A DNA stretch of 39,684 nucleotides. Source: Patescibacteria group bacterium (lineage in GTDB: Bacteria > Patescibacteriota > Patescibacteriia > UBA9570). Location: the NCBI GenBank assembly GCA_024277435.1, contig JAJRVJ010000016.1, positions 1-39,684 on the forward strand, written 5' to 3'. Positions 28,417-39,684 of this stretch are shown in pieces. Under the pieces are notes generated by a model, which was not told the origin of the DNA, made no database searches, and saw only the letters and a list, made by a program, of their open reading frames with translations. How positions within the stretch are numbered: position 1 is the stretch's first letter; each line of letters opens with the position of its first letter. Made by a program: the position numbers and the translations under genes.

Positions 28417-29880
28417 TTATCCTACGGATCCTTCCATTTCTAATTCAATTAAACGATTCATTTCAACGGCGTATTCAAGTGGTAGTGTTTTCACAATAGG
28501 TTCAATAAATCCATTCACTACCATTGCGTGTGCCTCCGCTTCCGTCATACCACGGGACATTAAATAAAATACCTCTTCTTCTCCAATTTTTCCTACTGTA
28601 GCCTCATGACCAATTGTTACATCATTATTATGTACGTTCATATCAGGAATCGTGTCAGACGTTGAGTGATCATCAAGAATTAATGCATCACAAATAACGC
28701 GCGCTACCGCGCCTTTAGCTTTCGGCCCAATGGTTAATTGTCCACGATAAATAGAGTGTCCATTATCTTTACTCATCGATTTCATAATAACGCTTGAGGT
28801 TGTATCTGGAGCGACATGAATTACCTTCGCGCCTGTATCTTGAATCTGATCCTTACCAGCAAACGCGATTCCTAAATGCTCAGCATGAGCGCCCCGCCCC
28901 TGCAAGATACTACATGGATACAGCATCGTTACTTGGCTTCCCATATTTCCACCAACCCATTCAATTCTACCATCTTCACCCACTAAGGCTCGTTTGGTAT
29001 TTAAATTATAGGTGTCTTTACTCCAATTTTCTACACTAGAATACCGTAGACGGGCCTTCTTTTTAATGAATACCTCTACACATCCAGCATGCAAGGAATT
29101 TGAATCATATTTTGGAGCTGAGCACCCTTCAATATAATGCGCATCAGCACCCTCCTCAATAATAATAAGTGTATGCTCGAACTGCCCCATATTTTGCGCA
29201 TTCATTCGGAAGTACGCTTGCATGGGTGCGCTTACATGCACGCCTTTCGGAACATATAGAAATGTACCACCACTCCATACTGCTGCATGTAAGGCTGCAA
29301 ATTTATGATCATTAATTGGCACGCAGCGCTTCATGAAGTACTCTTGTACAATATCCGGATACTTTTGCACCGCCACATCCATATCTTCAAAAATTACACC
29401 AAGCTTTTCCCATTTTTCTTTCAATTTATGATACACCACCGAAGATTCATACTGCGCTCCTACGCCAGCGAGTACCTGACGCTCGGCTTCAGGAATGCCT
29501 AACTTCTCAAATGTTTCTTTAATCTCTGGCGATACATCATCCCATGATTTTGTCATGTCTTCATTAATTTCTCCCGGTGCTGCATAATAAATAATTTCAT
29601 CAAAATCTAGCTTTGATAAATCTGGCCCCCATGCTGGCAATGCCTTTTCATTAAATACACGTAATCCTTCCAAGCGGATATCAAGCATCCACTCTGGTTC
29701 ATTTTTTTCTGAAGATATTTTACGCACTAGCTCTTCACTTAAACCACGTGTAGCATACTTGGTGTACTCTGAAGAATTACGATGATCAAACGTTTCACGC
29801 TTTAAATCGGAAAATATTTTATCGGTTGTATCTAAGGTTTTTTGTGGGACAGCCATATCTCTATAAATTATCGTAACCAA
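28417..29880 (-). CDS. sufB: Fe-S cluster assembly protein SufB
   Basis: 487 aa; EPEWMLDIRLEGL, GTFLYVPKGV, EGCSAPKYDSNSLHAGCVEV, ISKSMSKD-like VIMKSMSKDNG. Confidence 0.97.
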   Translation of the reverse strand: MVTIIYRDMAVPQKTLDTTDKIFSDLKRETFDHRNSSEYTKYATRGLSEELVRKISSEKNEPEWMLDIRLEGLRVFNEKALPAWGPDLSKLDFDEIIYYAAPGEINEDMTKSWDDVSPEIKETFEKLGIPEAERQVLAGVGAQYESSVVYHKLKEKWEKLGVIFEDMDVAVQKYPDIVQEYFMKRCVPINDHKFAALHAAVWSGGTFLYVPKGVHVSAPMQAYFRMNAQNMGQFEHTLIIIEEGADAHYIEGCSAPKYDSNSLHAGCVEVFIKKKARLRYSSVENWSKDTYNLNTKRALVGEDGRIEWVGGNMGSQVTMLYPCSILQGRGAHAEHLGIAFAGKDQIQDTGAKVIHVAPDTTSSVIMKSMSKDNGHSIYRGQLTIGPKAKGAVARVICDALILDDHSTSDTIPDMNVHNNDVTIGHEATVGKIGEEEVFYLMSRGMTEAEAHAMVVNGFIEPIVKTLPLEYAVEMNRLIELEMEGSVG

Positions 29881-30626
29881 TCATAACCCTTATCTTCCAC
29901 TTCTGCAGCAAACTCTTTACCACCAGACCGGGCGATCTTTCCATCAATTAATACATGTACATAATCTGGCGTAATGTATTCTAGAATGCGATTATAATGT
30001 GTAATCATTAATACGCTCATATCGGTTTTAGCTTTTAATGTATTTACGCCATCGCACACAATACGTAGTGCATCCACATCTAATCCAGAATCTGTTTCAT
30101 CTAGCACGGCAACAGCTGGTTGTAGCAGAGCCATTTGCAGCATCTCGGATTTCTTCTTTTCACCGCCAGAAAAACCAGCGTTTAAATAGCGTTCAGAGAA
30201 ATCTGGATTGATTTTCAATTCCTGCATGTATTCTTCCAGCATTTTTTTGAACTTAAATACAGATAGCTTTTTGTGGTCTGGATTTTTAGCCTTTTGCTTA
30301 GCATTATATATAGAGCGCAAAAATGTAAGTAACTTTACGCCAGGAATTTCCTTTGGGTATTGAAAAGCTAAAAATAATCCAAGATTAGCTCGCTTATCAG
30401 CCGAGAGCTCAACAATATTCTCACCTTTAAACCAAATCTCTCCCGATTCTACAGTGTACGCTGGATGCCCAGCGATGACCTGAGACAATGTGGTTTCGCC
30501 AGATCCATTAGGGCCCATAATTGCATGAATCTCTCCAGGTTTAATTTCTAACGAAATACCTTTAAGTACAGTTGTGTCTTCTATAGAAACAACGAGATCT
30601 TTGATAGTTAGTGTAGTATCACTCAT
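29868..30626 (-). CDS. sufC: Fe-S cluster assembly ATPase SufC, Walker A Lys replaced by Glu
   Basis: 252 aa; IMGPNGSGETTLSQVIAGHPAY, SGGEKKKSEMLQ, LDETDSGLDVDAL. Confidence 0.95.
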   Translation of the reverse strand: MSDTTLTIKDLVVSIEDTTVLKGISLEIKPGEIHAIMGPNGSGETTLSQVIAGHPAYTVESGEIWFKGENIVELSADKRANLGLFLAFQYPKEIPGVKLLTFLRSIYNAKQKAKNPDHKKLSVFKFKKMLEEYMQELKINPDFSERYLNAGFSGGEKKKSEMLQMALLQPAVAVLDETDSGLDVDALRIVCDGVNTLKAKTDMSVLMITHYNRILEYITPDYVHVLIDGKIARSGGKEFAAEVEDKGYDWLR

Positions 30627-30632
30627 ATTATG

Positions 30633-31031
30633 TTATATAATTTCTTGTAACGTTTTATGCTCTAATAATGTATAAAGGTCCGCCTTTAATGTGTTCCAAA
30701 CCGGTTTAGTTAGGCAAGTTTCTTGAACTGGACACGACGCATCTTCATGCATGCATCGCACCATTTGTAAGTTACCCTCAATTGCTTCAATTATCTCTCG
30801 TAATGTAATCTGCTCGGCAGATTTAGCGAGTTGATAACCACCTGTTTTACCCTCTTTACTCTTTACTAGCCCAGCCTGTTTAAGGGGTGTTACGAGCTTA
30901 GATAAGTATTTCGATGAAATGTTATGCGCATCAGCAATCTCTTGAAGTGACACAAAATTACCGGCTGATTGCTTTGCCAGCTCAACCATGATAAGTAATC
31001 CGTAATCTACTTTAGTAGTTACTGTAAACAT
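30633..31031 (-). CDS. Rrf2-family transcriptional regulator with Cys cluster
   Basis: MFTVTTKVDYGLLIMVELA...CMHEDASCPVQETC; heads the suf operon. ATG at 31031 (listed ORF extends upstream). Confidence 0.9.
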   Translation of the reverse strand: MFTVTTKVDYGLLIMVELAKQSAGNFVSLQEIADAHNISSKYLSKLVTPLKQAGLVKSKEGKTGGYQLAKSAEQITLREIIEAIEGNLQMVRCMHEDASCPVQETCLTKPVWNTLKADLYTLLEHKTLQEII

Positions 31032-31070
31032 AACTACTACTAATATAGTAGGAGTTAAATAAAATGTCAA
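31032..31070 (-). promoter_or_regulatory. suf operon promoter with palindromic operator over the -10
   Basis: Minus strand TTGACA (31070-31065) N17 TATATT (31047-31042). Imperfect palindrome AACTACTACTA-ATA-TAGTAGGAGTT at 31032-31056 (one mismatch). Confidence 0.75.
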
Positions 31071-31078
31071 TTCAATGG

Positions 31079-31558
31079 CTAAAGATCCGTAGTGAGGTAA
31101 TATAATAACACTCCACCAACTACCGAAACATTCAGTGATTCTTTATGCCCTCGCATTGGAAGATGCACTATCTCATCACACACTTTCAACTCATCTTCTT
31201 GCAACCCTTCAACTTCAGCTCCAAATACTACCGCGATTTTATCCGTATAACTAGCTTCTGTGTACAATGTACTATCATCAGTTAATTCAGCGGCAACTAT
31301 TTGATAGCCCTCTTTTTTAAGAGCAGCAATAGCTTCAAGTGAAGATTCATATTGTTCCCACGGCACAGTTTTTTCTGCACCTAATGAAACTTTCCATAAT
31401 CGCTTGTTATCTGGCGTACCGGTAATTCCACAACACACGATTTTGGTTATCCCCGCCGCATCGGCTGTACGGAAAAACGCACCAACATTATAGAGTGAAC
31501 GAATATTCGATAGTACAACGACTATATCACGCCGCACCTTACTTGTAGGCTTTACCAT
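31079..31558 (-). CDS. SpoU/TrmH-family RNA methyltransferase
   Basis: 159 aa; VVLSNIRSLYNVGAFFRTADAAGI, VVFGAEVEGL, LPMRGHKESLNVSVVGGVLLY. Confidence 0.92.
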   Translation of the reverse strand: MVKPTSKVRRDIVVVLSNIRSLYNVGAFFRTADAAGITKIVCCGITGTPDNKRLWKVSLGAEKTVPWEQYESSLEAIAALKKEGYQIVAAELTDDSTLYTEASYTDKIAVVFGAEVEGLQEDELKVCDEIVHLPMRGHKESLNVSVVGGVLLYYLTTDL

Positions 31559-32114
31559 ACATATCCTTAAATGCCATATCCTTTAAGGCTTGCCGAGTTC
31601 GTGGTTTACGCTCCTTAGCACGAGTACGATCATCAAGATCGGATAACTTTCCTGGATACCCCATAGCCATAACGGCAAATACACTTGAAGATACGGGTAC
31701 TTTCAAGGCTTTTTTTACCGCCTTATGGTCGAACCCACCCATCTGATGGCAGCGCAACCCTTCATACTGTGCCTGTAACACAAAGCTCATCATAGCCATC
31801 CCAGTATCATATTCGAAATAATCTGTATTTTCGTACGATGGATCATCTTTTTTATTTGCACACACCACAACAAGTACAGGAGCTGCTTTTGCCCAAGCAT
31901 TACCACGTGACAATGTGGCTTCAAGCAATTTACGCTTTGGAGATTTCTTATCAAGAATAATAAAACGCCAGGGCTGACTATTGCTACTAGAAGGCGCCCA
32001 TCGAGCTGCTTCTAAGCAGTTTAGTACAGTGGCTTTGGATAGAGATTTTTTAGCATAGGCTCGACCACTTTTACGCCGATTTATAATAGCTGCTAATTTT
32101 CGCTTTGAATTCAT
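31539..32114 (-). CDS. Nitroreductase family protein
   Basis: 191 aa; RRKSGRAYAKKSLSKATVLNCLEAARWAPSSSNSQPWRFI. Confidence 0.88.
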   Translation of the reverse strand: MNSKRKLAAIINRRKSGRAYAKKSLSKATVLNCLEAARWAPSSSNSQPWRFIILDKKSPKRKLLEATLSRGNAWAKAAPVLVVVCANKKDDPSYENTDYFEYDTGMAMMSFVLQAQYEGLRCHQMGGFDHKAVKKALKVPVSSSVFAVMAMGYPGKLSDLDDRTRAKERKPRTRQALKDMAFKDMYGKAYK

Positions 32115-32181
32115 TGATATTTAGTGATAAATAATAAAGATACTAATAATACTATCAAAATACCAATATATTGCCCAACTC

Positions 32182-32209
32182 TTGCATTATTTTGAATTTC
32201 CGCTATACT
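32182..32209 (+). promoter_or_regulatory. Promoter of rpmB, -10 located 8 nt from ATG (leaderless)
   Basis: TTGCAT N16 TATACT, ATG at 32218. Confidence 0.6.
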
Positions 32210-32217
32210 ACTCCGGT

Positions 32218-32451
32218 ATGGCTAAACATTGTGTAATAACAAAACGTAAATCGTCTGTTGGTAATAACGTTAGTCACTCTAAACGTAGGACCAAGCGACG
32301 TATTTACCCAAACTTACAAAAACGTAAGTTAATAAATCCTGCTACAGGTCGGCAGATTTCCGTAGTGATTTCAGCTCAAGGCCTTCGAACTCTTACTAAA
32401 TGGGATAACGAAGGAAAGAATTACGATCTTCGAGAATTTCTACGAGATTAA
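32218..32451 (+). CDS. rpmB: 50S ribosomal protein L28
   Basis: MAKHCVITKRKSSVGNNVSHSKRRTKRRIYPNLQKRK...ISAQGLRTL. Confidence 0.92.
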   Translation: MAKHCVITKRKSSVGNNVSHSKRRTKRRIYPNLQKRKLINPATGRQISVVISAQGLRTLTKWDNEGKNYDLREFLRD

Positions 32452-32474
32452 ACTCCGGTAAATAGCAGTAAATC

Positions 32475-32500
32475 AAAAAGCGCGTATATCGCGCTTTTTT
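32475..32500 (+). terminator. Intrinsic terminator after rpmB
   Basis: AAAAAGCGCG-TATAT-CGCGCTTTTTT. Confidence 0.85.
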
Positions 32501-32520
32501 GTTTGCTTTTGATATAATTC

Positions 32521-32961
32521 TTATTCAGATGGCTGATTATAATTCCGAAGAATATCAATATTCGTTACCACAGCCTCTACAGCCCGTTTAGCATACTCAT
32601 CTACTCGCCCCATAAAATATTCTGGTTTAGCACCTGGGCCAATTACTCCAAATCCAACCGGCTTCATATATTCAACTGATAATTGAATAATTGCGCTTGT
32701 CATGGCATTTACAACCAACTCGTCATGCTGTGTCTCCCCTTTTGCAACCGCTCCTAATAATACGATTCCATCAAGACGCACATCTTCCATCATTTTCTTG
32801 GCTATTACCGGCATATCGAATGTACCGGTAGTCATAACGATACGTGCAATATCAACATTACGCTCAGTCGCCTCTTCACGCGCGGCAGCAAGCATTAGCT
32901 CAATAATATCAGGATTAATTTCAGTGGTTAATATTCCTATGCGATGGTTAAGTATATTCAT
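32521..32961 (-). CDS. Lumazine synthase (RibH)-like protein
   Basis: 146 aa; TTGTFDMPVIAKKM, DGIVLLGAVAKGETQHDELV, PVGFGVI. Confidence 0.8.
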   Translation of the reverse strand: MNILNHRIGILTTEINPDIIELMLAAAREEATERNVDIARIVMTTGTFDMPVIAKKMMEDVRLDGIVLLGAVAKGETQHDELVVNAMTSAIIQLSVEYMKPVGFGVIGPGAKPEYFMGRVDEYAKRAVEAVVTNIDILRNYNQPSE

Positions 32962-32970
32962 ATATATAGT

Positions 32971-34038
32971 TTACGCATTATTTGATAAATCTTCAACTAC
33001 GGCTTTTAAAATTGCTATGCTCTTCCTGTATTCATTCAGATCAATTCGTTCTTCAGGCGTATGATCTAATGTAGAATCACCCGGACTGTATGCTACCATT
33101 TCAGCCTGCTTCCACCTGGTTGATACTACACCCAAATCCGAGCTGCCAGTTTTTTTCTTTAGTACTGGTTTTTCGTCTTGTTGGCGAATAGCTTTTGTAA
33201 ACGCTCGTACAAGCTTACTACGTGAATCTGATTCATAACCAGCTAGCGATTCAGAATATTCGATATTCATTGGTGTATCAATATTTTTCACAAATTCTTC
33301 AAAGGCTGCATTATCAAAATTAGGTGGGATACGTAAATTACAAAATACCTTTACATCTTCTTGCAAGCCATCATTAGAGCTATTCCAATTGCGAATCTCT
33401 AAGCGTGGCGAAGCAAACGCAGATTCTCGATTAAAATCCAAATTCTCAATATATTCATGAATGCTACGAATCGTACTAAATGCAATTTCATTCACGGCGG
33501 CATCCTTACTGGCAAAATGTGTCATTGGTTGAGAATGCGTAAGCGCAAAGCGAACGCCGCCCTTGTACCCAATGGTTACTACGTTCCAGCCAGATGGCTC
33601 ACCATTAATAACGTAGTGTGGCTCTTCAAAATCCTCTAGTATCTGATGTGCCCCCTTTGATGTAGCGCACTCCTCTTCAACACAACCAGCAACGGTAACC
33701 GTAACCAACTCTTTTAATTCGCCCGGTAATTCCGTAAGTGCGCTAATAATTGCGCACATACCCCCTTTAGCATCGCACGATCCTCTACCCCATAATTGTT
33801 GCTTATCATCAATATATACATCAATTTTACCAGGCACAGTATCGATGTGACCAAGGAATAATATTTGAATTGGACCAGAACCCCATATCCCGATGGCATT
33901 ACCAGCGTTATCGCTATAGGACTTTTTAAAATTTCTCTCACTCATCTCTGCAACAAAAAACTCCGCCGCTGGCTGTTCATTGTAAGTTGGGCTATATACC
34001 TGCAAGCTGCGTTTAAGAAATTCTGATGCGTTATCCAT
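32971..34038 (-). CDS. lysK: LysK-like M20 deacylase ([LysW]-lysine/ornithine hydrolase)
   Basis: 355 aa; GHIDTVPG, GRGSCDAKGG, VEEECATSKGA, INGEPSGWNVVTIGYKG. Confidence 0.87.
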   Translation of the reverse strand: MDNASEFLKRSLQVYSPTYNEQPAAEFFVAEMSERNFKKSYSDNAGNAIGIWGSGPIQILFLGHIDTVPGKIDVYIDDKQQLWGRGSCDAKGGMCAIISALTELPGELKELVTVTVAGCVEEECATSKGAHQILEDFEEPHYVINGEPSGWNVVTIGYKGGVRFALTHSQPMTHFASKDAAVNEIAFSTIRSIHEYIENLDFNRESAFASPRLEIRNWNSSNDGLQEDVKVFCNLRIPPNFDNAAFEEFVKNIDTPMNIEYSESLAGYESDSRSKLVRAFTKAIRQQDEKPVLKKKTGSSDLGVVSTRWKQAEMVAYSPGDSTLDHTPEERIDLNEYRKSIAILKAVVEDLSNNA

Positions 34039-34051
34039 ATTATGAGTGTAC

Positions 34052-35212
34052 TTATGAAGTCAAAACCACTTCAACGCGACGAATAATTTCATCAGCTTCG
34101 TCTTGCGTGATAGTTAATGGTGGAAGCAACCGCAGCACCGTACCGGTAGGCATTGCGATTAAATGTTGTTCTCGTTGTAAACGCTGTGCATATAATCCAG
34201 ATTTCTTCTTTAATTCAATAGCCAGCATCAAGCCCACGCCGCGCACTTCACGAATAATTGAGCTATCTATTGCACTAAGGCCGTCATATAAATAACTTCC
34301 CATTGCCAATGCATTGTCATGCAAATTATTTTCTTTAATATGTAGCAATGTTGCATTTGCCGCCACACAAGCCAATGGATTTGAGCCAAAGGTTGTTCCA
34401 TGTGATCCCTTAGGAATGTGCTCCGCGTATTGTTCTTGAATAACTGTTGCACCAATCGGGAAGCCGTTACCTAGTGCCTTTGCTAGGCATAAAATATCTG
34501 GCACTACATCATACACTGTACTCGCCAACCAATCTCCAGTACGAAAACCAGTTTGCACTTCATCAAAAATTAATACCATACCTGTTTCATTACAGAAATT
34601 ACGAACGGATTGTAAGTATTCCTTTGTCGCTGGTACTACTCCACCCTCACCTTGAATTGGCTCCAGAATTACTGCTCCCATTTCTTCTGTGTACGCATTC
34701 TTTAAATCTTCAATATCATTGAAAATAACTTGTGCATTGGGCTCCAGCAATGGCTCAAATGGTTTGCGATATTTTGGAGTACCGTTTACCGATAAGGCTC
34801 CCATGGTACGACCATGATATGCTCGCTTAGTGGATATTACACCCGGCTTATTTGTAGATAGTCGCGCAAATTTCAAAGCCGCCTCAATGGCTTCCGTTCC
34901 TGAATTACATAAATATGTTCGAGTAAGCTCCTCAGGAAGTATGCTGTGTAATGTTTCTAGTAAGTTAGCGCGAGCATCACTATAAAAGCTACTATGTACA
35001 CCTATTATATTATTCAACTGTAGTGACAGAGCCACTGTAAATTCATTATGGCTATGACCAAGAATCACTGTTCCGTACCCCATCATACAATCAATGTATT
35101 CTTCTCCCTGTTCATCAATCGCAACTAAACCCTTACCGCGCGTTAGTGCTACGTCACGCTTGGGATATAATCCTGCTAAATGTTTATCTTCGATTTCTTG
35201 TATGTTCATCAT
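34052..35212 (-). CDS. lysJ: LysJ/ArgD-type aminotransferase
   Basis: 386 aa; GYGTVILGHSHNE, CNSGTEAIEAALKFAR, ILEPIQGEGGV, IFDEVQTGFRTG, AKALGNGFPIGA. Confidence 0.9.
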   Translation of the reverse strand: MMNIQEIEDKHLAGLYPKRDVALTRGKGLVAIDEQGEEYIDCMMGYGTVILGHSHNEFTVALSLQLNNIIGVHSSFYSDARANLLETLHSILPEELTRTYLCNSGTEAIEAALKFARLSTNKPGVISTKRAYHGRTMGALSVNGTPKYRKPFEPLLEPNAQVIFNDIEDLKNAYTEEMGAVILEPIQGEGGVVPATKEYLQSVRNFCNETGMVLIFDEVQTGFRTGDWLASTVYDVVPDILCLAKALGNGFPIGATVIQEQYAEHIPKGSHGTTFGSNPLACVAANATLLHIKENNLHDNALAMGSYLYDGLSAIDSSIIREVRGVGLMLAIELKKKSGLYAQRLQREQHLIAMPTGTVLRLLPPLTITQDEADEIIRRVEVVLTS

Positions 35213-35218
35213 ATACTA

Positions 35219-36010
35219 CTATTTAATAGTTGTTCCTTTACCCGATAAGGCATCACTTACTGGATGCTCTACTCGTCCATCACTAATATACACCGTTGGT
35301 TGACCATTTTCAAATAAACGGCGTAATGCTAGCATTTTACGCTTCATACGCCCCTCTACTTGTTGCTCGCGCTGCTCAAGCTCATCTTGCGTTAGTGTTT
35401 TTACAAGTGAATTTGCATCTTGAATATCATCCATAAACCCAGGCGCTTCGATAAGCTGTACGATAGTATCTGCTTGAATAGCTTGCTGTAATACATTAAT
35501 AATATCGTCATTCTCTGAATTAATGGCATAGCCATTCTCATCAATAATTGGAACGCACAATACCGGCGAGTAACCATTGTCTGTAAGTAATGAAAGAAGA
35601 TCTGCATTAATAGATTTAGGTTTACCAGAGAAGTCTCTTAAGATCTTCACCTTCTCGCCCACCTTAGCTTTGATACCTCGATTACGCATACCTTGAATCA
35701 TTCGGCCATCAATACCAGATAATCCAACAGCATTTACTCCAGCAACTTGCAGCATTTCAACCAAACGTTTATTTTGCACACCAGCATACGCCATCATTAA
35801 ATTATCTATCGCATCTTTATCTGATAGCACGCTCTGATAACCAGAAACAGACGTAACCACCTGCTTCGGTGTTCCGCGCTCCTCCGCTAGTGCATCACGC
35901 ACAGCATTGGCACCATGAATAATAATATACGGCTCTGATAATTCAGCCAAATCATTTACAACCCCCTCTAGATTAATTTCCGCTCCCCCGCCTATTTTTA
36001 TTAATATCAT
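35219..36010 (-). CDS. lysZ: LysZ/ArgB-type [LysW]-aminoadipate/glutamate kinase
   Basis: 263 aa; IKIGGGAEINLEGVVNDLAEL, IIHGANAVRD, EGRMKRKMLALRRLFENGQPTVYISDGR. Confidence 0.9.
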   Translation of the reverse strand: MILIKIGGGAEINLEGVVNDLAELSEPYIIIHGANAVRDALAEERGTPKQVVTSVSGYQSVLSDKDAIDNLMMAYAGVQNKRLVEMLQVAGVNAVGLSGIDGRMIQGMRNRGIKAKVGEKVKILRDFSGKPKSINADLLSLLTDNGYSPVLCVPIIDENGYAINSENDDIINVLQQAIQADTIVQLIEAPGFMDDIQDANSLVKTLTQDELEQREQQVEGRMKRKMLALRRLFENGQPTVYISDGRVEHPVSDALSGKGTTIK

Positions 36011-36047
36011 ATTTATTTAAGACATTCTTGCTCCGCTACTTAATTCT

Positions 36048-36124
36048 CTTGATATCTTACCTTGTCTTCCATGAGCGACTAGGCTTCCGTCAAAGTGAAT
36101 GGAAGGGCAAGGTGGGATGTCAAG
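36048..36124 (+). ncRNA. Long imperfect hairpin between lysY and lysZ; candidate structured RNA on the + strand
   Basis: CTTGATATCTTACCTTGT.CTTCCAT pairs with ATGGAAG.GGCAAGGTGGGATGTCAAG over 25 bp. All non-Watson-Crick positions are U-G on the + strand; one bulged G. Confidence 0.4.
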
Positions 36125-36133
36125 ATTTATCAT

Positions 36134-37168
36134 CTATACAGGGTGTAAGCCAAAGAATTCCAGACCTGCGGTTTCTGGCATTCCATAACGGATATTCACA
36201 GCCTGAATCGCCTGCCCTGCCGAACCACGAGTTAAATTATCAATGGCTGATAGTACGATTACACGATTACTGCTAAGGTCTCGTTCAAATCCAATGTCGC
36301 AAAAATTTGTTCCTTGTACAATCTTTGGTTCTGGATAACGATAAATTCCTTGCCGCTCTTTTACGATACGAATAAAGTGTTCTTCACCGTAATACTTACG
36401 GTATAATTTTCGTAGCTGTTTATCATTCATCTCTTCAGTAAGAAATACATGTGCTGTAGCAAGAATTCCCCGCACCATTTCTATAGCCGTTACAGAAAGT
36501 GAAATTTCTGCTGTGCCAAGCTCTTGCAGAATTTCACCCGTATGCCGATGACCAGACGGTTTGTATGAACGTACAGCTCGGCTGCGCTCTGGATGATGCG
36601 TAGCTAAACTAGCTTTATTACCAGCGGCCGTGGAAGAGATTTTTGTTTCTACTACCGTGCGTGTCTCATCTACAATACCAGCCTGATAGAGTGGATAGAG
36701 CCCAAGAATGATGGCAGTAGGATTACAACCTGGGGATGCAATGTAATTGGTAGATTTCAACTCTTCACGATGAATCTCGGGAATAGCATACACAAATTGT
36801 GAGAGTAATTCTGGTCGTGGATGTGGTGTTTCATGCCAAGCATTATATATCTCTTCTGTGCGAGCTCGAAAATCTTCACTGAGATCCACTAACACATCAC
36901 ATGCAGCATCCACCTTATCAAAACGGTCAATCAGCATTCCATGAGGTAGTGCTGTAAATATGACATCACACTCTTCAAGTTCTTCAGCTGAAGAAAATCG
37001 CATGTCAGTTTGTCCTCGAAAATTTGGATGCGCCAAATGCAGCGGCTTCTTTGCATACCGCTCGGATGTTACTTGCACTAATTCTAACTCGGGATGTCCA
37101 AGAATCAACCGAACAACTTCACCTCCAATATACCCCGATCCACCTACTACACTACATCGTATACTCAT
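36134..37168 (-). CDS. lysY: LysY/ArgC-type [LysW]-acyl phosphate reductase
   Basis: 344 aa; [61 protein letters not shown]. Confidence 0.93.
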
Positions 37169-38016
37169 AAATATGTTTCTTTAATATAACTAATAATTTC
37201 TTGCGGGATATTCACTCCGGTTGTCTTGATGCTGTTTCGAAATTCCATCGAAGAATTTATCTCTGTTACTAGTAATTCTCCGGACATTGCTTCAATAAGA
37301 TCAATTGCTACTATTTCCCCACCAACAGCTTTCGCAGCTCGAAGCGATACATCTGCAATGTCATCTGTTACCGGGCAATTACTTGCCTCAGCGCCACGAG
37401 CTGTATTTGTAACCCAATGGTCTGACTTGCGATAAATTGCGGCAATACAACGATCACCAACAACAAATGCCCGAATGTCACGACCCTGTTGTTTTTCGAT
37501 AAGCGGTTGAATATAAAAATTACTATGTTGATAATTTCCCAATAATTGTTTGTGCTCCAATACTGTTTCCGCTGCATCACGATCATTAATTTTACTTAGC
37601 AATCTCCCCCACGAACCCTGTGTAGGCTTCATTACTACAGGGTAACCAAATTCTTACATCGCCTGAATAGCCGCTTCTTCAGTGTAAGCCAATTTTGTTG
37701 GAATAGTGGCAACGCCAGCTTTCTGCAATACTAGTGACGCTGTAAATTTATCGTCACACATCTCTGTAGAGAGTACAGAATTTATCGTATGTACACCTTG
37801 GGATTCAAAAAAACGGAGCGTTGTTGGAATACGTCCGTGATTCATACTACGTTGCAATAGCACTTGCGACTCCAATTGTGGAGTGTTGGCTACAATATCA
37901 AGAATAAGATCGTTGTCTCGAACTTTTTCTAATTGCACACCCAACTCTTCGCAGGCTGCAAATAGAAGTTTTTCTTCTGGGCGAACCCGTGAATATATTA
38001 TTGCTAAGGATTTCAT
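37165..38016 (-). pseudogene. lysX: LysX-type ATP-grasp ligase interrupted by a single in-frame TAA (37654-37656)
   Basis: Two collinear in-frame ORFs: MKSLAIIYSRVRPEEKLL...[32 protein letters not shown]...[19 protein letters not shown]. Confidence 0.9.
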
Positions 38017-38029
38017 TTATAAATGATAA

Positions 38030-38203
38030 TTACTCTCCCCAATCCTCTTGAATTTCTGGAGCCAATTCAACCTTAGGTGGATCTACACTGATGAGCTCTA
38101 ATTCAGCTGAGCATTCACTGCATGTAAATACTTCGCCTATTTCTGGCTGTATTGATAACGCGAGGCTAGCATCGCATTCTGTGCATGAAACAGATTTTTG
38201 CAT
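38030..38203 (-). CDS. lysW: LysW amino-group carrier protein (absent from the ORF track)
   Basis: 57 aa: MQKSVSCTECDASLALSIQPEIGEVFTCSECSAELELISVDPPKVELAPEIQEDWGE. Two CxxC zinc motifs and the LysW C-terminus EDWGE; directly upstream of lysX. Confidence 0.96.
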   Translation of the reverse strand: MQKSVSCTECDASLALSIQPEIGEVFTCSECSAELELISVDPPKVELAPEIQEDWGE

Positions 38204-38237
38204 AATATTTATTTATAAATAATTTTTTAAAATAAAT

Positions 38238-38258
38238 GACCCACGTTGTATGTGGGTC
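38238..38258 (-). terminator. Attenuator terminator hairpin upstream of lysW
   Basis: Minus strand GACCCAC-AUACAAC-GUGGGUC followed by AUUUAUUUU. Confidence 0.75.
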
Positions 38259-38290
38259 TGTACTGGAATGGTAATTACCACAACAGCCCA

Positions 38291-38347
38291 CTACGAATGG
38301 GTCTTCTTGGCCTTCGCCTTATATGTTGTGAAAACTACATTTTCCAT
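38291..38347 (-). CDS. Putative lysine-rich leader peptide of the lysW operon
   Basis: ATGGAAAATGTAGTTTTCACAACATATAAGGCGAAGGCCAAGAAGACCCATTCGTAG = MENVVFTTYKAKAKKTHS*. Preceded by a consensus promoter and followed by terminator/antiterminator alternatives. Confidence 0.65.
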   Translation of the reverse strand: MENVVFTTYKAKAKKTHS

Positions 38348-38354
38348 TGCGCTT

Positions 38355-38382
38355 ATTATATATGCGTATAGTAATCTGTCAA
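38355..38382 (-). promoter_or_regulatory. lysW operon promoter
   Basis: Minus strand TTGACA (38382-38377) N16 TATAAT (38360-38355), 7 nt before the leader-peptide ATG. Confidence 0.85.
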
Positions 38383-38429
38383 GAATGTAACTATTCTCTA
38401 GAATCATTTATGCACCTAATCATTCCAAT

Positions 38430-38469
38430 AAAAACAGCCTCCACTATTTTTATTTTGGGGGCTGTTTTT
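38430..38469 (-). terminator. Intrinsic terminator (possibly bidirectional)
   Basis: AAAAACAGCCTCC...GGGGGCTGTTTTT. Confidence 0.75.
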
Positions 38470-38590
38470 GTGTATGACCTAACCGCAAGTGCAAGAACCG
38501 CCTTCACCGGTGGTACCGCCGCAATTTGGGCACGCCTCTCAGGATTAATTACTTAGTAAGTATATCACATGATATGCTACACTCAAGTAT

Positions 38591-39490
38591 ATGAAAAAAC
38601 CACAGGGACCAGAGGGATTTGAGGAATATTACGCAACACAGTTTCCTGATAATTGGCAGGAACTAAAAGCCGGCTTACTAAAAGAGACAAAGCCTATTTT
38701 ACGTTTCTCTGTTAAAAATAAAGAAACACTTGAACGTCTTTGGCAGAAAAATAATCTTACATGGCAGACACTATCCTGGTACCCGCATGCTATTGAATGG
38801 CCAGCGGAAATACTGTTGGGCGAAGAACTCCCGGGATACGCTGATAATCTATTTTATGTGATGAATGCAAGTTCTTTGTTGCCAATATTAGCACTAGATC
38901 CTCGATCTAATGAACGCATCTTGGATGCCTGCGCGGCTCCCGGCGGAAAAACCCTAGCGATAGCAGATACACTAGGAGATGCTAGCGAACTCATTGCCAA
39001 CGATACCTCTCCAAAGCGCCGACGCAGATTACAAGATAACCTGCGCAATTACGGACATGATGAGGTGCAAGTAACCGGTAAAAAATCTGAAACGTTATTT
39101 AAAACCCAACCTGATACGTACGATAAAATATTGGTTGACGCTCCATGTAGCTCAGAAAAACATGTACTGAATTCTCCTAAACATATTGAACAATGGAGTT
39201 ATTCACGAATCAAATCATTAAAGCAACGGCAGATTGCTTTGCTGAGTGGATTATTTCTTGCGTTGAAACCTGGAGGTAGGATGGTATATTCCACGTGTGC
39301 GCTTACTCCTGAAGAAGACGAAGAGGTAGTAAAGAAATTGCTTAAAAAGAAAAAAGACGCGATCTCTCTTATTTCTATGGATATTCAAGATATTCCCGGA
39401 AAACAAGGTGAATTTGGTTGGAGAGTATATCCTAGTGCTACAACCAACCTTGACCCTATGTTTGTAGCTATATTTATTAAAAACAGCTAG
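38591..39490 (+). CDS. NOL1/NOP2/Sun (RsmB/RsmF-like) rRNA m5C methyltransferase
   Basis: 299 aa; LDACAAPGGKTLAIAD, VDAPCSSEKHVLN, MVYSTCALTPEEDEEVV. Confidence 0.93.
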   Translation: MKKPQGPEGFEEYYATQFPDNWQELKAGLLKETKPILRFSVKNKETLERLWQKNNLTWQTLSWYPHAIEWPAEILLGEELPGYADNLFYVMNASSLLPILALDPRSNERILDACAAPGGKTLAIADTLGDASELIANDTSPKRRRRLQDNLRNYGHDEVQVTGKKSETLFKTQPDTYDKILVDAPCSSEKHVLNSPKHIEQWSYSRIKSLKQRQIALLSGLFLALKPGGRMVYSTCALTPEEDEEVVKKLLKKKKDAISLISMDIQDIPGKQGEFGWRVYPSATTNLDPMFVAIFIKNS

Positions 39491-39499
39491 TTTTAGGCA

Positions 39500-39532
39500 A
39501 ATTAACCCCAGGTTTTATACCTAGGGTTAATT
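39500..39532 (+). terminator. Intrinsic terminator, conserved hairpin family
   Basis: AATTAACCCCAGGT-TTTAT-ACCTAGGGTTAATT (one mismatch), downstream of the methyltransferase. Confidence 0.7.
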
Positions 39533-39543
39533 AGTTTCATATA

Positions 39544-39684
39544 CCTGAATTCTAGAATCTAATGCCCCACCTCTCTAGCAATAACCTCATTAGGAGTTAG
39601 ATAATTAAGACCTTTGCGAGGTCGGTTGTTTAACCTTTCTTGTATAGCATAAATATCTTCATCAGTCATTATGGAAAGATCGGC
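39544..39684 (-). mobile_element. IS30-family insertion sequence, 3' end fragment, inverted copy (transposase C-terminus in 39559..39684)
   Basis: Reverse complement reads ADLSIMTDEDIYAIQERLNNRPRKGLNYLTPNEVIAREVGH*. Identity with 1..138 stops sharply after ...ATTCTAGAATTCAGG. Confidence 0.85.

Follow-up and report, generated by a model that had tools for sequence, protein, structure and literature searches.

A predicted lysine-responsive, ribosome-mediated attenuator upstream of a LysW operon in Patescibacteria, with counterparts in Chloroflexota

The sequence analysed here, referred to as the window, is a 39,684-nucleotide stretch of DNA from a member of the Patescibacteria that carries an apparent lysine biosynthesis operon on its minus strand. 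The first gene of this operon is lysW (38030..38203), which encodes the amino-group carrier protein (TIGR01206, 59.4 bits against a cut-off of 53.2; PF21344). It is followed by lysX (37165..38016), lysY/argC (36134..37168; TIGR01850, 365.6 bits), the [LysW]-aminoadipate kinase gene lysZ (35219..36010; NF010659, 237 bits, cut-off 223), lysJ (34052..35212), for which the best NCBIfam match was LysJ_Th_th at 398.5 bits, below the model cut-off of 700, and the [LysW]-lysine hydrolase gene lysK (32971..34038; NF003367, 338.5 bits, cut-off 363; TIGR01902, above cut-off). A 6,7-dimethyl-8-ribityllumazine synthase-like gene (32521-32961; TIGR00114, 103 bits) lies at the end of the operon. Although TIGR02144 matches both halves of lysX, these are separated by a single in-frame TAA (37656-37654) that leaves the reading frame unchanged, while every other gene in the operon is open. 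This stop codon reflects a genuine nonsense mutation or else an error of assembly, and the operon may accordingly be decaying or simply misassembled at this base. Elsewhere on the same strand of the window, a SufC-like ABC ATPase (29868-30626) has the Walker A sequence GPNGSGETT, in which Glu replaces the catalytic Lys, and what looks by eye like the final part of an IS30-type transposase (39559-39684) extends past the window edge close to the lys operon.

Upstream of lysW, we read from the sequence a sigma-70-type promoter (38355..38382, minus strand), comprising a -35 TTGACA (38382-38377), a 16-nt spacer and a -10 TATAAT (38360-38355). It matches the consensus at 12/12 positions and is the sole such match within 30000-39684. 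Seven nucleotides (AAGCGCA) past the -10 element, an ATG at 38347 opens an 18-codon ORF (38291..38347, minus strand) that would encode the peptide MENVVFTTYKAKAKKTHS before its stop codon, and this short spacing makes the ORF apparently leaderless, or nearly so. Lys-rich leaders were found at the same place in relatives. The ORF contains four Lys codons, all of which are AAG and lie within codons 10-15 (AAG GCG AAG GCC AAG AAG; 38303..38320), the predicted sensing codons, and it contains no Arg codon. The promoter, ORF and codon content were thus found just where the original prediction had placed them. Upstream of these elements, at approximately 38478-38531 of the minus strand, a frame that lacks a usual start codon reads CPNCGGTTGEGGSCTCG up to its stop codon; it resembles a tiny zinc-ribbon peptide and has its own terminator-like hairpin downstream.

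The RNA that would be transcribed from this promoter contains a set of mutually exclusive pairings. Region 2 (38264..38291) starts at the leader stop codon and consists of GUGGGCUGU (38291-38283) followed by UGUUGUGG, AAUUAC and UUCCA. Region 3, ACAGACCCAC (38252..38261), can pair either with region 2, forming an antiterminator with one bulged A, or with region 4, forming the intrinsic terminator detected in our terminator scan (GACCCAC-AUACAAC-GUGGGUC plus the tail AUUUAUUUU; 38229..38258, with the hairpin itself at 38258-38238). The terminator has a 7-bp stem, a 7-nt loop and a U-rich tail in which the U-tract is broken by an A. All three overlapping pairings proposed originally are present. 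In the original 1:2 pairing, CCCA at the 3' end of the leader ORF (region 1', 38298..38301) is the partner of region 2, through UGGG at 38290-38287. This pairing exists in the sequence and in folds, but the minimum free energy fold is dominated by a longer 1:2 helix in which UGGAA, GUAGUU and UCACAACA (region 1, 38324..38346) pair with UUCCA, AAUUAC and UGUUGUGG, respectively, joining the start of the leader ORF to the region after its stop codon. In the free state, this long helix coexists with the terminator.

The 120-nt leader folds with a free energy of -41 kcal/mol versus -24.0 ± 3.7 kcal/mol for dinucleotide shuffles (z = -4.57), and 0/200 shuffles were as low. The terminator by itself is unremarkable, as 7 terminator-like sites were found in the scan versus 6.6 expected. 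We also scanned the genome of the window (1.33 Mb, 97% complete; 1,325,256 of 1,326,506 bases retrieved) for intergenic short ORFs with a cluster of any residue followed by a terminator. Seven such ORFs were recovered, among which the window leader has by far the strongest pairing between the stop-codon region and the terminator arm; this 2:3 duplex has a free energy of -15.7 kcal/mol, with the runner-up at -11.2 kcal/mol and the remainder at -6.4 kcal/mol or weaker. Elsewhere in the genome there are 28 intergenic K-rich short ORFs. The covariance model of the Rfam lysine riboswitch had no match in this region of the window, even at a lax threshold, or in sampled relatives, and other Rfam cis-regulatory and leader families likewise gave no match to the leaders of the window or its relatives.

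The effect of ribosome position was evaluated by masked folding, in which the downstream edge of the ribosome was placed, by assumption, 15 nt away from where the A-site codon begins. With no ribosome on the window leader, the terminator had a calculated probability of 0.98 and the 2:3 pairing was almost absent. Whichever of the four Lys codons held the stalled ribosome, 2:3 formed in the RNA preceding region 4, and a ribosome at the stop codon gave a terminator probability of 1.00 and no 2:3. The attenuation logic first put forward, in which a stalled ribosome promotes the antiterminator and a ribosome at the stop codon permits termination, was thereby reproduced for the window. In the equilibrium calculation, a stall at any of the three later Lys codons still leaves the terminator favoured over 2:3, and the switch would therefore need to be under kinetic control, as in known attenuators. 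In these models the geometry of the window leader is that of a three-state attenuator, region 2 being available while the ribosome sits on the sensing codons and covered once it reaches the stop codon.

As judged from sequence and modelling, the leader is very probably a classical four-region ribosome-mediated transcription attenuator that responds to lysine and controls the lysW-X-Y-Z-J-K operon. Transcription would start directly before the leader ATG or at it. Under a shortage of charged tRNA-Lys, the ribosome would stall in the KAKAKK run and mask region 1, so that regions 2 and 3 could pair before region 4 is made and transcription would continue into lysW. With ample lysine, the ribosome would reach the stop codon and cover region 2, leaving regions 3 and 4 to pair and terminate transcription. 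If the leader is not translated, region 1 would capture region 2, and termination would again be favoured. We infer from this arrangement that the leader is translated and that the operon is regulated by lysine; tRNA-Lys species with CUU and UUU anticodons are both encoded in the genome.

Comparison with related genomes bore out the expectation that Lys-rich ORFs and competing 2:3 and 3:4 stems would be found upstream of other lysW genes, both within the Patescibacteria and in the Chloroflexota. A protein similarity search for lysW in 59 close relatives recovered only the gene of the window genome itself, and the family model was needed to find others. With this model, LysW exceeded the family cut-off in 3 of the 389 genomes of the class, including that of the window. 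Most matches in the class or phylum below the LysW cut-off were other small zinc-ribbon proteins with no lysX nearby, and these were excluded from the counts. Both of the other lysW-bearing genomes of the class (loci L028/L002 and L079/L003) have a Lys-rich leader, a terminator and then lysW. The L028 leader reads MKIFISLNSYVKENKKSFWSGS up to its stop codon (Lys run VKENKK) and is likewise preceded by TTGACA, while the L079 leader, the first base of which falls off the contig end, reads (M)KSTNISLNVKKSKKGSSLGS (Lys run KKSKK). Each shows pairing of the stop region with the 5' arm of the terminator (GGGGAGUU with GGCUCCCC in L028; UGGGGAGUU with GGCUUCCCA in L079), as well as pairing of the Lys codons with the bases that directly follow the stop codon, for example GCAAAAAG with CUUUUUGC in L079. 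Simulated switching in L079 was similar to that of the window. In L028 it was less clean: a ribosome on the last Lys codons or the stop codon shifted folding toward the terminator, and read-through was favoured in the free RNA. The leader thus accompanies lysW in its nearest lysW-bearing relatives, but this conservation did not extend to L108, a more distant patescibacterial lysW-lysX-lysY locus that has no leader. In a LysY tree, the rows of which do not include Thermus, the window groups with the patescibacterial L028 (91/96) and outside the leader-bearing Chloroflexota groups.

In a broader scan, Lys-rich short ORFs were present upstream of lysW at 13 of 82 loci versus 1.25 expected, with Lys-rich leaders and terminators in many Chloroflexota and at one Planctomycetota locus. 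Among 90 additional upstream regions from Anaerolineae-type Chloroflexota (the class of G742, whose locus L045 belongs to the Anaerolineales), 22 carried a Lys-rich short ORF versus 0.47 expected, and a single one was found on the opposite strand. The leader was seen in only about 40% of Chloroflexota regions. No other residue was enriched upstream of lysW to the extent of Lys; Gln (5 versus 0.38 expected) probably reflects KQSK-like leaders. Across lineages, the leaders share the Lys run and the spacing between it and the stop codon, and their remaining residues vary freely. Two Lys-rich leaders in series precede a single lysW at L045, L050, L056, L069, L236, L242, L243, L276, L286, L289, L306, L308 and L313, and in several of these loci each leader has its own terminator; such pairs are possibly tandem attenuators. 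An FMN riboswitch (RF00050, 93 bits) was also detected near the lysW locus of a Chloroflexota genome (L266:523-689, minus strand).

Conservation of the stems was assessed in an alignment of 18 Chloroflexota leaders that spans the Lys codons through the U-tract. For 3:4 together with 1':2a, the counterpart of the CCCA/UGGG pairing of the window, 91.8% of alignment cells were paired, while slid controls reached at most 54%, and covariation was 0.375 versus 0.182 in shuffled alignments (0/500 shuffles). Changes on both sides were seen in 9 of the 17 pairs that make up the stop-codon hairpin and the terminator, and in 8 of the 10 pairs of the 3:4 helix. Since the terminator 5' arm and loop in Chloroflexota repeat a CCAGACC-like stretch of the leader, the stop-codon region can pair with either copy, the latter pairing being the 2:3 antiterminator. 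An alignment-based count of helix 1:2b over all Chloroflexota was dropped because its register shifts between subgroups (GAGCAAG:CUUGCUC in one, AGGCCA:UGGCCU in another), and it was replaced by per-sequence pairings and a swap test. In 35 leaders, including those of the window, L028 and L079, pairing within each leader was on average stronger than pairing between swapped partners for both 2:3 and 1:2, and 0/20,000 permutations reached the self mean in either case.

Among the alternatives, the one that survives best, although we consider it unlikely, is that the leader is a non-functional remnant, once a working Lys attenuator, before an operon now undergoing decay in this lineage. The in-frame TAA in lysX is consistent with such decay, as is the patchy distribution of the operon in the host family, lysW being absent from the 3 other same-family genomes searched. 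The upstream part of the pathway points the same way: queries from Chloroflexota and Deinococcus found no homocitrate synthase or homoisocitrate dehydrogenase in the window genome, and aconitase was not found there either, the one exception being a small HMGL-like fragment at an atypical contig end. Against decay, the promoter is intact, as are the leader frame and the three stems, the other operon genes are open, and a single-base assembly error would explain the lysX stop equally well. Aconitase is present in the L028 and L079 genomes. In both, lysW and lysX are separated by a divergent citrate-synthase-like gene (L028:5061-6254 and L079:365-1558), which could encode an unusual homocitrate-forming enzyme. 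The atypical end is L200 (G000:C23:65001-67046), where the last 2 kb of a contig of the window genome have a G+C content of 50-64% versus 40% for the genome; this end, which carries a LOG-family-like ORF and the HMGL-like fragment, is possibly foreign or misassembled.

A real attenuator could also serve a pathway whose product is ornithine or arginine, with lysine sensing as a form of cross-talk. Some archaeal LysW systems are bifunctional or arginine-specific (PMC10433800), and the missing homocitrate pathway would fit such a product, yet we regard this as improbable. Escherichia coli queries found no relatives of argG or argH in the genome, nor of dapA, dapB or lysA. The specificity motif, whose role has been described (PMC10433800), reads EFRNS in the LysX of the window, with Asn-Ser as in Thermus LysX (EFKNS) rather than Gly-Phe as in ArgX (EFKGF), and the LysX of L028 scores 294 bits to T. 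thermophilus LysX versus 173 bits to ArgX. Elsewhere, Lys leaders head complete homocitrate-to-lysW operons; at L068, for example, the leader precedes an operon that runs from homocitrate synthase to lysX. An arginine end product was accordingly set aside as less likely, given the lack of argG and argH hits and the resemblance of LysX to that of Thermus. Because Lys is the only clearly enriched residue in the leaders, LysX is Thermus-like and argG and argH were not found, the end product of the cluster is likely lysine. The suggestion that lysine is the regulatory end product is strengthened to this extent by leader enrichment and LysX, while the upstream aminoadipate genes that would complete the route were not found.

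It is more improbable still that the leader responds to something other than charged tRNA-Lys, such as arrest of the nascent peptide in the exit tunnel or direct binding of lysine by a riboswitch. The leader peptide is highly basic, and sequence cannot separate tRNA supply from nascent-chain effects; however, nothing but the Lys run and its spacing from the stop codon is shared across lineages, other residues being free to change, and the leaders match neither the lysine riboswitch nor any other cis-regulatory family of Rfam. The chance association of an ordinary constitutive terminator with an unrelated short ORF, for which the near-random number of terminator-like sites and the abundance of K-rich short ORFs in the genome might speak, is largely refuted by the comparative data and scarcely credible given the fold energy, the uniqueness of the arrangement in the genome and its recurrence and covariation in relatives.

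The lysine-responsive attenuator that we favour has a precedent, contrary to the initial impression that no LysW-operon attenuator of this kind had been described. Tsubouchi and colleagues reportedly described, in J Biol Chem in 2005, a leader peptide with Lys codons that acts as an attenuator for the lysine cluster of Thermus thermophilus. That system reportedly shares with the window a short leader with Lys codons, alternative stems, a terminator and a LysW/aminoadipate operon. The window differs in that its leader stands directly before lysW rather than before homocitrate synthase, in that its four Lys codons form a spread run, and in its reduced-genome patescibacterial host. We also found a counterpart in Deinococcus sp. 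NW-56, from the same phylum as Thermus, where, in the same layout as in the window, a TTGACA promoter, a near-leaderless ORF reading MTALATASKKPTAPPG up to its stop codon and a terminator lie directly before lysS; in this genome, as in L068, the Lys leader precedes homocitrate synthase. The trp, his, leu, phe and thr attenuators of Proteobacteria resemble the window leader in the regulatory codons of their short ORFs, their 1:2, 2:3 and 3:4 pairings and their U-tract terminators, and the same holds for the trp attenuators of Actinobacteria (PMC1262725). Unlike either group, the window leader is predicted to sense lysine, has an apparently leaderless ORF and matches no Rfam leader family. The lysine (L-box) riboswitch also controls lysine genes through alternative RNA structures, but it has no leader peptide, and the window has no Rfam match to it.

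What is new is the occurrence of a predicted Lys attenuator in Patescibacteria, its distribution across Chloroflexota, where tandem copies are seen, and the conserved architecture. A wider reading, which may well hold but which we advance tentatively, is that an uncatalogued family of four-region Lys attenuators runs the LysW operons of Patescibacteria, Chloroflexota (often with two in series) and at least one member of the Planctomycetota, and that in the host of the window, which has no recognisable aminoadipate enzymes, the attenuator gates the production of lysine from imported aminoadipate or from aminoadipate of unknown source. A literature search found no paper on attenuators in Patescibacteria, a group whose gene regulation is little studied and to which amino-acid attenuation would now extend. 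The Chloroflexota leaders, with their strong covariation, tandem copies and lack of a matching Rfam family, are ready to be modelled and searched for. A Lys leader would also point, at the level of sequence, to the end product of a LysW cluster, for which it is difficult to decide between lysine and arginine from the enzymes alone.
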